DNA of 58,761 bases, from contig CACBQK010000002.1 in the NCBI GenBank assembly GCA_902541365.1, forward strand, positions 65,478-124,238, read 5' to 3'. The position numbers and the translations under genes were made by a program. Below the pieces are notes generated by a model, which was not told where the DNA came from, did no database searches, and saw nothing but the letters and a program-made list of their open reading frames with translations. Within the stretch, counting starts at the first letter, position 1; the number at the start of each line of letters is the position of its first letter. Positions 15,808 through 23,338 of this stretch are shown in pieces. Source of the DNA: an uncultured SAR86 cluster bacterium (GTDB taxonomy: Bacteria > Pseudomonadota > Gammaproteobacteria > Magnimaribacterales > D2472).

Positions 15808-15828
15808 ATATAATTTATTACTAAAATG

Positions 15829-15892
15829 TACTTCCAATAAGTATGTTTTTGTATTATATTGTGCGTACTTTACAAACACATACAAGGAAGTA
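15829..15892. repeat. Long imperfect inverted repeat between rpsI and petA
   Basis: Two nested pairs form a stem: TACTTCC (15829-15835) with GGAAGTA (15886-15892), and GTATGTTTTTGTA (15841-15853) with TACAAACACATAC (15871-15883, 12 of 13 complementary). Small internal loops (AATAA and AA) separate the pairs and a 17-base loop closes the hairpin. There is no downstream T-run, so it is not an ordinary terminator. It could be a leader RNA structure of petABC, an operator or a mobile-element remnant. The spacer 15808-16051 contains no convincing gene. Confidence 0.7.
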
Positions 15893-16021
15893 TATGGGTA
15901 CAACAAACAAAAGATACCCCAATATAATAGGGCTTTCAAGAGATTCTATATTTTTTAAGAGCTCAAATACATCCGTCCATTTCATTATCATGAGTACCCT
16001 AATTTTTACATATGGGTACAA
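15892..16021. repeat. Direct repeat pair ATATGGGTACAA with flanking small hairpins
   Basis: The 12-base sequence ATATGGGTACAA occurs exactly at 15892-15903 and at 16010-16021. Each copy can also pair locally: GGGTA (15896-15900) with TACCC (15915-15919), and GTACCC (15994-15999) with GGGTAC (16014-16019). The second copy ends 30 bases before the petA ATG. The arrangement suggests a paired protein-binding site or alternative RNA structures, but function is unknown. Confidence 0.6.
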
Positions 16022-16051
16022 TCCTGACTTATATTATTTGCTTTTTTAATA

Positions 16052-16921
16052 ATGACAGAAATTACAGAAAAATACCTTACTCTAAGAGGAGCTAATAATG
16101 ATATTTATTTTTTTCAAAAAAGGGTTAGCGAAAAGGTTGCTGACATTATTGGTACCAGTTTTGTAAAGACATCGCTAAAGACTAAGGATCTCACTGAGGC
16201 TATATCTAGCAGAGATGAGCTTGTAGATGCATTAAATCAACTTGAGAATTCTGACATATTGGATATTAGTGATAATCTTCGAAGCATTTTGGATGGTTTT
16301 GGTATCTCTATTTCAAAAGAAAATGCATATAAAAAATCTGATATCAGCAATGAACCAGATCAAGGAAGAAGAAAGGTTCTGATTGGCCTTACTGCTGGTT
16401 TTGCCGCAGCTGGTGTTGCTTTTGCAGCTACTCCATTTGTAACAACTTGGAATCCAAGTGCAAGGGCTAAAGCAATAGGATCTGCCGTGAAAGTTGATGT
16501 TTCTAAAATGATGGTTGGTCAGCAGATTCAAGTTTCATGGAGAAAGCAACCAATATTAATTATTAGGCATTCACCATCAGCATTGTCTGGTTTGGCTTCA
16601 GTGACATCAAAACTTGCTGATCCAAATTCAGATAGTATTGACGAACCTTATAAAAACATTAATGCTACAAGGTCTTTAAGTGCAGAATATTCCGTGCTAT
16701 CAGGAGTCTGTACCCACTTGGGCTGCTCCCCTAAATATTATCCTGAAGTCGAACCTAAGCCGTGGGATTCCTCTTGGGAAGGTGGTTTCTTTTGTCCATG
16801 TCACGGTTCAATGTTCGATTTAGTGGGCAGAGTTTACAAAGGTGTTCCTGCACCAACAAATTTAACCGTACCCCCTCACTTCTTTGAAGGGAGTATTTTA
16901 ACAATTGGAGAAGAAGCATAA
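16052..16921 (+). CDS. petA: Ubiquinol-cytochrome c reductase Rieske iron-sulfur subunit with integrase-like N-terminal extension
   Basis: Residues 105-289 are a normal Rieske subunit of the bc1 complex: twin-arginine GRRKV (105-109), a membrane segment (about 110-130), box I CTHLGC (220-225) and box II CPCHG (248-252), the [2Fe-2S] ligands being C220, H222, C248 and H251. Usual length is about 200 residues; this one has 289. Residues 8-65 (YLTLRGANNDIYFFQKRV, then TSLKTKDLTEAISSRDEL) resemble the N-terminal domain of tyrosine recombinases of the DUF6538 type. The frame is open throughout. A TTG at 16289 would give a 210-residue normal-length protein, so an in-frame integrase remnant upstream of the true start is the alternative. 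No ribosome site precedes the ATG. petB overlaps by one base. Confidence 0.93.
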   Translation: MTEITEKYLTLRGANNDIYFFQKRVSEKVADIIGTSFVKTSLKTKDLTEAISSRDELVDALNQLENSDILDISDNLRSILDGFGISISKENAYKKSDISNEPDQGRRKVLIGLTAGFAAAGVAFAATPFVTTWNPSARAKAIGSAVKVDVSKMMVGQQIQVSWRKQPILIIRHSPSALSGLASVTSKLADPNSDSIDEPYKNINATRSLSAEYSVLSGVCTHLGCSPKYYPEVEPKPWDSSWEGGFFCPCHGSMFDLVGRVYKGVPAPTNLTVPPHFFEGSILTIGEEA

Positions 16922-18129
16922 TGGTAACGAAGGTTCTAAACTGGATTAACTACAGACTACCCATAATTAATACTTTCGAAAGGCATCTTTCGAAGCATCC
17001 TGTCCCAAAAAAAGTTAACTTTTGGTACCTATTTGGGGCTCTTGCTTCAATTGTGCTTATTCTTCAAATAGTTACAGGAATCTGGTTAATGATGCCATAT
17101 TCAAACACTGAAGAGGGAGCATTTGCATCGATTGAATACATTATGAGAGATGTTGATTATGGATGGATAATCAGGTACATGCATACCACAGGAGCATCGA
17201 TGTTCTTTGCAATAGTTTATCTTCATATGTTCAGAGGCCTTCTATATGGCTCATATAAAAGACCTAAAGAATTAGTTTGGATTTTTGGATGCACTATTTA
17301 TCTAGTAATGATGGCTGAGGGATTCCTGGGCTATGTTCTTCCATACGGCCAAATGTCATATTGGGGCGCACAAGTTATTATCTCTCTTTTTGGAGCAATA
17401 CCGTATATTGGCGAATCATTAGAGATTTGGGTAAGAGGTGACTATTATATTTCTGGCATAACAATCTCAAGATTTTTTGCACTTCATGTAGTTGCACTAC
17501 CGCTTATACTAATTGCACTAGTTTTTCTTCATCTTGTTGCATTGCACGAAGTTGGTGCTGGAAATCCAGAGGGTGTTGATATTGAGGAATATATCGATGA
17601 TGATGGAGTCCCATTAGATAGTGTTCCTTTTTTCCCTTATAAAGTTTTGAGTGCAATGCCTGCAATTGGAGTTTTTGGACTGGTTTTTTGTGTGATAATG
17701 TTTTTCTTCCCAGAGGGTGGTGGATATTTTCTTGAATTAGCAAACTTCGAGGAAGCAAATCCACTAGTAACTCCCGAACATATAGCACCTGTTTGGTATT
17801 ACTCGCCTTTTTACACAATGTTAAGAGCAGTTCCAGATCCACTTGGAGGACTTATAGTTATGGCTGCAGCAGTGGCAATATTATTTGTTGTACCTTGGTT
17901 GGATAGAAGTAATGTTGCATCAATAAGATATAAAGGGATATTGAGTAAGATAGCGATAGTTTTGTTTACTGTAAGTTTTGTTACCTTAGGATACTTGGGA
18001 ACTGTTACTGTTACAGAGACAGGGAAAATTATGTCCGTAATTTGTACTCTAATGTATTTTGCTTTTTTCCTATTAATGCCTATTTATACAAGCATTGAAA
18101 AAACCTATGAGGTGCCAGATAGATTGTGA
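16921..18129 (+). CDS. petB: Cytochrome b subunit of the bc1 complex
   Basis: Cytochrome b (402 residues) carries the two haems and both quinone sites of complex III. Eight membrane helices are visible. Haem-ligating histidines lie in RYMHTTGAS / VYLHMFRGL and in FALHVVALP / VFLHLVALH. The Qo-site motif, usually PEW(Y/F), appears as PVWYYSPFYTML. It starts at the last base of the petA stop and overlaps petC by 4 bases, so petABC is one translational unit. Confidence 0.97.
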   Translation: MVTKVLNWINYRLPIINTFERHLSKHPVPKKVNFWYLFGALASIVLILQIVTGIWLMMPYSNTEEGAFASIEYIMRDVDYGWIIRYMHTTGASMFFAIVYLHMFRGLLYGSYKRPKELVWIFGCTIYLVMMAEGFLGYVLPYGQMSYWGAQVIISLFGAIPYIGESLEIWVRGDYYISGITISRFFALHVVALPLILIALVFLHLVALHEVGAGNPEGVDIEEYIDDDGVPLDSVPFFPYKVLSAMPAIGVFGLVFCVIMFFFPEGGGYFLELANFEEANPLVTPEHIAPVWYYSPFYTMLRAVPDPLGGLIVMAAAVAILFVVPWLDRSNVASIRYKGILSKIAIVLFTVSFVTLGYLGTVTVTETGKIMSVICTLMYFAFFLLMPIYTSIEKTYEVPDRL

Positions 18130-18917
18130 TTAAATCATTAATAATAATTAGTTTTTTATCATTTTCGTTAGTTCCAAATGTGAATTCAGCCGAGGGAGGT
18201 CCATGTAAAGACTATGGAGACTGTGATCAGTTTAAACCAGATTTAAATAATATGGCTTCGCTTCAAAGAGGCGTAGGCACTTTTATGAAATATTGCTATA
18301 GCTGCCATTCGCTTAAATATTCTAGATGGGGAAGGGTTGCAAATGATCTTCAAATACCCGAAGACATTTTCTTTGAATATCTTGTACCAGATAAGGATGC
18401 TGGACCATTTGATTTAATGGTTGCACCCATACATGAGTTAGAAATTGATAATGCCCCACCTGACTTAACCTTGGTTGCAAGAAAAAGAACTTCAAGCTGG
18501 GTTTATACATATTTGAGAGCTTTTTATGATGATGCTTCAACAACCTATGGATCAAATAATCTTGTTTATCCCGGAGTAAACATGCCTAATATTTTGGCAC
18601 CAATTCAAGGTAATCAAAAACTCGGGTGTAAAGAAGTCCCTGTATTAGCTAAAAATGGTGGTGAAAAAAGAGATGAATTGGGAAATACCATTACTAAAGA
18701 AAAATGTGGATATCTAAAGCATCAAGACGGCTCAGGTTTGTTAAATGTTGAAGAGTTTGATGATTTTATATATGATCTCACAAATTTTTTAACATATGTA
18801 GGTGAGCCTAGCAGGGCAGAAAGGGAAAGAATGGGAGTATATGCGATAATATTCTTTATTATATTTACATTTCTTTCTGCGCTTCTCTACAGAGAATATC
18901 AAAAAGACTATCACTAG
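18126..18917 (+). CDS. petC: Cytochrome c1 subunit of the bc1 complex
   Basis: Cytochrome c1 (263 residues) passes electrons from the Rieske centre to soluble cytochrome c. A signal peptide (LIIISFLSFSLVPNVNSAE) precedes the haem c site CYSCH (about residues 56-60); the axial Met is probably in the VNMPNIL segment; a C-terminal anchor (YAIIFFIIFTFLSALLY) holds it in the inner membrane. The usual WFG before APPDL is replaced by EIDN. It starts with GTG overlapping the petB stop. Confidence 0.95.
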   Translation: MIKSLIIISFLSFSLVPNVNSAEGGPCKDYGDCDQFKPDLNNMASLQRGVGTFMKYCYSCHSLKYSRWGRVANDLQIPEDIFFEYLVPDKDAGPFDLMVAPIHELEIDNAPPDLTLVARKRTSSWVYTYLRAFYDDASTTYGSNNLVYPGVNMPNILAPIQGNQKLGCKEVPVLAKNGGEKRDELGNTITKEKCGYLKHQDGSGLLNVEEFDDFIYDLTNFLTYVGEPSRAERERMGVYAIIFFIIFTFLSALLYREYQKDYH

Positions 18918-22216: not shown

Positions 22217-23338
22217 ATGAATTGGGAAGTTGTAAATGATACTGATCAAGCAAAAATAAAAGTTATTGGGGTGGGTGGTGCCGGAGGCAATGCTGTGATC
22301 CACATGATGAATCACAAAATCCAAGGTGTAGAATTTATATGCGCTAATACAGATTCACAGGCCTTAGAAAATGCTAAGGGCGCCACTATTTTAAAGCTTG
22401 GAGGCGGAATGACTAAAGGACTTGGTGCTGGAGCAAATCCTGAAGTTGGAAGACAAGCTGCTGAGAGAGATAGAGAAGCAATTGAGCAACTACTTCATGG
22501 CTCAGATATGATCTTCATAACTGCAGGTATGGGTGGAGGAACAGGAACCGGAGCTGCACCAGTAATAGCATCAATTGCTAAAGAAATCGGCGCTTTAACA
22601 GTTGCAGTTGTGACGAAACCATTTAAGTTTGAAGGTAAGCCAAGAATGAGTTCAGCTGAAAAGGGTCTTGCTGCTCTTGTAGAGGAAGTTGATAGTTTAA
22701 TAACAATACCAAATCAAAAATTAATAGATGTTCTTGGAGCAAATACTCCTATTCCAGAAGCTTTTGCGCAAGCAGATGATGTTTTAAAGGGAGCTGTTCA
22801 AGGAATTTCAGATATTATCATGAAACCAGGTCTCATAAACGTTGACTATGCTGATGTAAAAACAGTTATGTCAGAAAAAGGCATTGCAATGATGGGTACC
22901 GGAAGATCTAACACAAAAGACCGTGGAAGAGATGCAGCTGAATTAGCTGTTGGAAGTGAACTACTTGAAGATATAAATCTTAAGGATGCAAGAGGTGTTT
23001 TAGTAAATATTTCTGCAAAAGATCCAACAATGGGAGATTTTACTGAGGTAAGTGAGGTTGTTGAGGAGTTTACTGCTGATGATGCGACATGTATCTACGG
23101 ACTTGTAATTGATCCATCTCTCAAAGATGAGCTAATGGTTACAATAGTTGCAACAGGAGTTAATCAAAAATCTCCAAAGCTTGCTATCGATAATAAACCT
23201 AAGGCATCTATTAAGCTCTCACCGGTTGGATTAGACAAAGATTTAACAAATAAAGAAGTTCAACAAGTTGGTGCATCGTCTGCAGAGGCAATTGATTTCC
23301 TCGATGTACCAACTTTTATGAGAAAGCAAGTAGACTAA
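22217..23338 (+). CDS. ftsZ: Cell division tubulin FtsZ
   Basis: FtsZ (373 residues) polymerises into the division ring. GTP-binding GGAGGNAV near residue 20, the tubulin signature GGGTGTGAAPVIA, the T7 loop NVDYADVKT and the C-terminal peptide FLDVPTFMRKQVD that binds FtsA and ZipA are all intact; the intervening linker is short. A strong AGGGGAGATGAA ribosome site suggests high translation. Position is atypical: directly after mraZ and before rsmH, whereas in most proteobacteria ftsZ ends the cluster after ftsA. Confidence 0.98.
   Translation: MNWEVVNDTDQAKIKVIGVGGAGGNAVIHMMNHKIQGVEFICANTDSQALENAKGATILKLGGGMTKGLGAGANPEVGRQAAERDREAIEQLLHGSDMIFITAGMGGGTGTGAAPVIASIAKEIGALTVAVVTKPFKFEGKPRMSSAEKGLAALVEEVDSLITIPNQKLIDVLGANTPIPEAFAQADDVLKGAVQGISDIIMKPGLINVDYADVKTVMSEKGIAMMGTGRSNTKDRGRDAAELAVGSELLEDINLKDARGVLVNISAKDPTMGDFTEVSEVVEEFTADDATCIYGLVIDPSLKDELMVTIVATGVNQKSPKLAIDNKPKASIKLSPVGLDKDLTNKEVQQVGASSAEAIDFLDVPTFMRKQVD

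Follow-up and report, generated by a model that had tools for sequence, protein, structure and literature searches.

Integrase-type heads on Rieske and other iron-sulfur proteins of SAR86 bacteria, with matching DNA repeats that suggest control of their own genes

Trigger enzymes such as PutA are a published precedent for proteins that combine a role in metabolism with control of their own gene. PutA of E. coli unites a role in metabolism or respiration with a DNA-binding domain, and its sites lie at the gene that encodes it; it acts as a repressor in the cytoplasm and as an enzyme at the membrane (PMC8249747). Precedent is also in print for negative autoregulation of integrases via sites that overlap their own promoter (PMC2951348). 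In self-regulating tyrosine integrases, for instance IntS of KplE1, the N-terminal domain binds arm-type sites, and these sites overlap the enzyme's own promoter region (PMC2951348), an arrangement that we liken to the one described here at petA of an uncultured SAR86 bacterium.

The petA gene studied lies in a stretch of 58,761 nucleotides, called the window below (Table 1). The original prediction held that its product is a Rieske protein fused to an integrase-type N-terminal domain, and Pfam bears this out: DUF6538 (PF20172) matches residues 11-63 of the whole protein (E 1.8e-6, 28 bits), and residues 1-102 taken alone give a stronger match (E 2.7e-7, 30.6 bits), both above the curated cut-off of 27 and hence sufficient for membership of the family. 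Members of DUF6538 read outside SAR86 and one further genome (G368, below) are integrases or integrase-like frames, several short frames remaining unread. The remainder of the chain is a proteobacterial bc1 Rieske subunit, as UCR_Fe-S_N, the Tat anchor of Rieske proteins, is matched at residues 101-136 and Rieske at 210-272 (Pfam), and residues 105-285 match the NCBIfam equivalog TIGR01416 (Rieske_proteo) with 190.5 bits against a cut-off of 97.4; CTHLGC and CPCHGS, the two Rieske motifs, are both found in the sequence. The catalytic Phage_integrase domain is absent from PetA at E <= 10 (Pfam), so that the protein does not qualify as a tyrosine integrase, and a search of PHROGs gave no match for P0001 and nothing better than E 0.09 for the head itself. 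PetA thus meets the criterion of a trigger enzyme that an intact enzyme part and a DNA-binding-type domain share one chain, binding being inferred from the family. The names rplM, rpsI, petB, petC, iscU, gltB, hemE, plsC and parE, and likewise the korA adjoining the Kor-linked oxidoreductase described below, were assigned by eye; petB and petC are presumably co-transcribed. The word DUF6538 was not found in the open-licence PMC literature, none of the titles and abstract openings listed from it describes such fusions, and the main text of a SAR86 isolate paper has no mention of Rieske, integrase or DNA-binding (PMC11582366).

Table 1. Positions in the window of petA, the parts of its product, the neighbouring genes and the candidate sites
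Feature	Position	Strand	Basis and remarks
Leader rpsI-petA, 244 bp, with four candidate sites	15808..16051	+	rpsI named by eye
Candidate site 1, loose form (TGCGTAC)	15862..15868	+	aligned in 9/9 genomes; no binding data
Candidate site 2 (ATGGGTAC)	15894..15901	+	motif, conservation; no binding data
Candidate site 3 (ATGAGTAC)	15990..15997	+	motif, conservation; no binding data
Candidate site 4 (ATGGGTAC)	16012..16019	+	motif, conservation; no binding data
petA ORF	16052-16921	+	ATG start, 289 aa
Integrase-type N-terminal domain of PetA (residues 1-66; DUF6538 match 11-63)	16052..16249	+	Pfam, purifying selection, model
Variable linker of PetA (residues 67-105)	16250..16366	+	dN/dS 0.16-0.78, length changes in 2/9 genomes
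Rieske part of PetA (residues 106-289) and stop: twin-arginine anchor, [2Fe-2S] domain	16367..16921	+	Pfam, NCBIfam
petB (16921-18129) and petC (18126-18917)	16921..18917	+	ORFs; gene names by eye

Two accounts of the extra N-terminal residues had been proposed, domestication of a mobile-element fragment, read through from ATG 16052, or an untranslated remnant with petA starting at TTG 16289. Comparison of starts across nine genomes contradicts the second. Codon 80, the proposed TTG, is TTG in three genomes, ATG in two and TTT in four, and codons 61-107 are without any ATG, GTG or TTG in three of the nine; a start at TTG 16289 fails because four genomes cannot initiate at this codon and the linker offers no start in three. 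The fusion is full-length, uninterrupted and free of stops in nine of the ten genomes of the genus, that of the window included; a petA match is missing from the tenth, which is 79% complete. In other genera of the family, 21 petA genes were read, and none has a head. The proposed dN/dS comparison of the N-terminal codons (NG86, each relative against the window) gave 0.024-0.072 for head residues 1-66 in seven of eight pairs, the eighth having saturated dS, and over all eight pairs the linker gave 0.16-0.78 and the Rieske part 0.008-0.086. Judged from these comparisons of sequence, the PetA head is a translated domain under strong purifying selection throughout the genus, and domestication in this sense is upheld by the Pfam match, by the nine of ten genomes and by dN/dS.

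The head was modelled with a beta-beta-alpha-beta-alpha topology at moderate confidence (mean pLDDT 73), and the model of the full-length fusion had a mean pLDDT of 44 and was therefore unused. Foldseek found no PDB match at E <= 0.001, a sequence profile search of the PDB gave nothing relevant, and a second structural comparison returned integrase arm-binding domains (3rmp, Z 4.0; 3jtz, Z 3.7) along with unrelated folds that scored equally or better. The net charge of the window's head is -2, as against +3 to +11 in eight other heads compared, and this, like the weak structural matches, counts against the explanation favoured below.

Upstream of the gene, the petA leader has diverged across the nine genomes, yet the repeats in it are retained. 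The loose form TG[ACG]GTAC occurs in four copies at near-constant spacing in 9/9 genomes, and the exact form ATGRGTAC in three copies in seven genomes, two in the genome of L008 and one in that of L009, the most divergent of the nine; the lower counts in these two genomes speak against the explanation favoured below. Invariant columns of the leader make up 21 of 28 within the motif against 40 of 216 elsewhere, a result matched by 15 of 20,000 random placements, and ATGRGTAC is not found before the 21 headless petA genes (0 in 5,460 bp). These conserved, head-specific repeats would satisfy the trigger-enzyme criterion of binding sites at the operon only if the head binds them, which is inferred. 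What is unusual is the clustering of three sites within 126 bp and not the window total, which is four against 1.34 expected and is reached in 5 of 100 shuffles; the whole genome (1.02 Mb) holds 29 ATGRGTAC against 43 for a reversed-pattern control, with three within the 126 bp at petA. A promoter scan of the leader was uninformative (3 sites against 2.4 expected). A further exact ATGGGTAC lies at window 22892-22899, some 6.8 kb downstream from where petA starts. Two members of the genus have an ATGRGTAC pair 19 bp apart (L190 ~1950-1976, L191 ~1926-1952) where the ends of a plsC-like and a parE/gyrB-like gene, as named by eye, converge, and this pair is a possible second target of the head.

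Head and repeats could be a mere relic, the captured start of an integrase together with its arm-type sites and without present function. Repeats of this kind do occur at the genes of integrases of the same type, but a head with dN/dS of about 0.02-0.07 beside a drifting linker, and sites conserved within a diverged leader, contradict this reading because selection acts on head and sites alike, and we regard it as scarcely tenable.

The window's head type, type A, gave strong matches in 50 of 203 genomes of the order, comprising nine PetA, 40 frames of 149-210 aa and one integrase. The short frames read encode tail-anchored proteins of 146-190 aa, in which the head is followed by a variable linker and a hydrophobic C-terminal end; a strongly hydrophobic 17-residue C-terminal stretch is present in 37/38, the exception (L103) running off its stretch. 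In a tree, the PetA heads form a single clade (support 1.0) that branches from among the tail-anchored proteins; for a domain of 65 aa, its position at greater depth is weakly supported. The motif was first noticed at petA and then tested on the tail-anchored genes elsewhere, in other genera, with 38 of 39 loci counted (L091 has no complete frame and was left out). ATGRGTAC occurs 182 times in the 24,029 bp of these genes and their 160 bp upstream and 8 times in the surrounding 327,825 bp, so that the genes are 310 times denser in it, and two or more copies are found at 38/38 loci. The consensus is TATGGGTAC before PetA and TATGAGTACA before the tail-anchored genes. Between 3 and 7 copies lie in and before the tail-anchored gene across L079-L117 (among them L116 of SAR86A and L095 of SAR86B). 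Sites inside the genes run forward in 22 cases and in reverse in 34, and the recurrence of NVP[IM] and MST/MGT in the proteins arises partly because sites fall inside coding sequence. At G083 C1 388553-388669 (within L140), a weak type A match broken by stops is probably a degraded tail-anchored gene. Because the motifs were discovered by inspecting these regions and the loci are related by descent, the enrichments given here, above and below cannot be read as probabilities.

The two carriers of type A heads are proteins of the membrane, and with clusters of 3-7 sites within and before the tail-anchored gene it is conceivable that the tail-anchored protein and the bc1-bound head tether the chromosome, holding the site cluster at the membrane. 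We hold such a tether to be highly improbable, as the sites are at the carrier's own gene and not spread over the genome, and as the carriers of the type B and type C heads described next, PetA excepted, are soluble enzymes.

Type B heads occur on a Kor-linked FAD/4Fe-4S oxidoreductase, on IscS and on KorA, and their profile aligns with that of type A at 96%, the core GGTACA being common to both. DUF6538 matches the oxidoreductase head at up to E 8.6e-11 and falls below the cut-off for one of four heads tested (from G038). Within the window's own family the head is present on 12 of 13 oxidoreductase matches, the exception being in G025; the oxidoreductase of L162 is headless. Among 185 genomes of the class, the enzyme was found in 13 from outside SAR86, and in 13/13 the match starts after the head (query residue 79-89). 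IscS carries the head in family f3 of SAR86, where eight loci were read and the identity of the enzyme was confirmed by NCBIfam in the one locus tested. In these f3 loci (L170-L173, L175-L178) an inverted TGTACC/GGTACA pair lies near the start codon. At L174 (G188), a Kor-linked oxidoreductase fusion is divergent from headless iscR-like and iscS-like genes. Oxidoreductase and IscS together account for strong type B matches in 72 of the 203 genomes. The one case outside SAR86 is a KorA with head in G368 (L164 671-2866), with AAGGTACAG twice within 330 bp upstream, and when 369 genomes of the class were searched, type B heads at E <= 1e-9 came up only there and in one SAR86 genome. Within 260 bp upstream, both strands counted, GGTACA is present at least once at 35/35 distinct type B loci (L138 and L151 coincide and were counted once) and twice or more at 26 (IscS 9/9, Kor-linked oxidoreductase 17/25, KorA 0/1); the single copy at the other 9/35 counts against the favoured explanation.

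A third type of head, type C, is carried by PetA of another SAR86 family, f4, with a strong match in 14 genomes and 13 loci read; in three of eight f4 genomes the petA frame is only 191-200 aa long and leaves no room for a head. Alignment of the type C profile to the type A and type B profiles is poor (hhalign 67% over 19 columns, and 12%), and type C heads match DUF6538 below the cut-off or not at all; PHROGs gave one integrase at E 0.08. The f4 head profile does match an integrase of 382 aa from SAR86 at 2.8e-13, and an integrase origin of this head, as inferred from such matches, may be proposed with less certainty. The same profile matches GltD in 93 of 107 genomes of the window's own family, mostly in frames of 549-625 aa, and a 1,240-aa indolepyruvate:ferredoxin oxidoreductase in G080, with a similar frame in G079. 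NCBIfam confirmed GltD in two loci, that of the window's genome included, and the indolepyruvate enzyme in one (G080); further cases of these two enzymes and of IscS rest on frame length and a matching head. The GltD of the window's own genome (L182 2116-3783, contig C5) has an integrase-type N-terminal extension of ~91 residues, is divergent from a gltB-like gene and has tandem GTCATAC repeats at its start. With 260 bp upstream and both strands again considered, TGTTCAA occurs four times, as two inverted pairs, before 13/13 f4 petA loci, GTCATAC stands in tandem, 10 bp apart, at 18/18 GltD loci (in one of these the second copy runs into the start codon), and TATACACA is found twice or more at 2/2 loci of the indolepyruvate enzyme. 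No head start was found at L162, L203, L205, L207, L226 and L227, and these were excluded from the subtype repeat counts. Strong type A and strong type B matches (50 and 72 genomes) did not overlap among the 203. Many of the genomes compared in this work are single-cell or metagenome assemblies. That each genome holds exactly one such head was considered and rejected, as type C on GltD accompanies both A and B and the window's genome has two.

In all, five head subtypes were distinguished, each with its own DNA repeat just upstream. The repeat accords with the head: PetA has two unrelated heads and a separate repeat for each, and a head shared by several carriers has a single repeat. Related heads on other proteins and subtype-specific repeats thus favour a function in DNA binding and autoregulation over one within the bc1 complex. 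This pairing also bears on whether the head serves in docking or assembly of iron-sulfur and membrane proteins, with the repeats serving another regulator. The enzyme carriers are all iron-sulfur proteins, subunits of iron-sulfur enzymes or IscS, the cysteine desulfurase that donates sulfur for cluster assembly, and they emerged from searches that went by domain and not by carrier, but the repeat tracks head subtype and not carrier, down to the two unrelated repeats of the two PetA heads. A purely docking role was demoted because the repeats were found, and we consider it very improbable.

A rival account is that the heads recognize the repeats as RNA, in which case feedback would be translational, on the mRNA leader. 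The sites are in leaders, several of them near the ribosome-binding region (at -25/-8 for f4 petA and at about -20/-10 in part of the GltD loci), and in most tail-anchored genes the start codon itself lies partly within a site. However, sites occur in both orientations, at the tail-anchored genes and as inverted pairs at f4 petA, which suits double-stranded DNA, where orientation is irrelevant, and not RNA; furthermore, integrase N-terminal domains bind DNA (PMC2951348). Recognition as RNA is improbable, if the least so of the alternatives to DNA binding by the heads at their own genes.

Integrases themselves offer a possible source for both parts of the pair. G011 encodes an integrase of 441 aa whose head is of the window's type; TAGGTACA and TGGGTACA lie around a TATAAT-like stretch before its gene, and the core GGTACA is present at its own promoter. 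Of four other integrases examined, three have repeats before the gene (GGTACGCA twice at L181, TGTGTTAA three times at L187, GTGTGACA four times at L135) and that of L179 has no GTAC there. Viral contigs held no relative of the type A or type B profile, and phage records none of the window's head. The cassette probably derives from integrases that regulate their own promoters, and its simplest origin would be capture of an autoregulatory unit, operators and first 65 codons together, the origin of the sites being inferred.

Matching repeats before the fused genes suggest, from sequence alone, that the proteins control their own genes. Our preferred reading, to which we give a probability of about 0.78, is that the heads are domesticated integrase cassettes, DNA-binding domain and operators, that make iron-sulfur proteins autoregulatory in the manner of PutA. 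The PetA head would be a domesticated integrase domain that still recognizes ATGRGTAC; unassembled Rieske precursor in the cytoplasm would bind the four leader sites (three exact, one loose) and lower petABC transcription, until Tat export and bc1 assembly take the head to the membrane, so that repression is lifted. The signal would then be the amount of unassembled or cluster-free protein. Binding, repression as the sign of the effect, and relief by export and assembly are all inferred, with no binding or expression data. An anchored head may reach DNA poorly; that it binds while at the membrane is still possible. Comparable head-site pairs are found in SAR86 at GltD, indolepyruvate oxidoreductase, the Kor-linked oxidoreductase, IscS, f4 PetA and the tail-anchored protein. 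A broader proposal, put forward only tentatively and with somewhat less than even confidence, is that SAR86 uses such cassettes in place of some conventional regulators, with iron-sulfur and electron-transfer proteins reporting their assembly or cluster state at operators, in one genus from a membrane subunit of bc1.

If true, this would be a recurrent and traceable route from mobile-element proteins to host regulators, in which domain and operators move together. The pairs of head and site yield predictions open to simple binding assays, and propose target sequences for DUF6538, an uncharacterised Pfam family.

The export step of PetA would be a natural switch, comparable with membrane association in PutA (PMC8249747). 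Unlike PutA, the SAR86 proteins would have taken the head, and probably the sites too, from integrases, the head recurs on several iron-sulfur proteins within one order, and its regulatory role is inferred only. The DNA-binding domain also differs, being a ribbon-helix-helix in PutA. Unlike IntS-type integrases, PetA is an enzyme of the host and has no catalytic recombinase part. The AP2-type domains of eukaryotic transcription factors are another case of an integrase-like DNA-binding fold reused for regulation; unlike the SAR86 heads, these regulators are eukaryotic, stand alone and are not fused to iron-sulfur enzymes.
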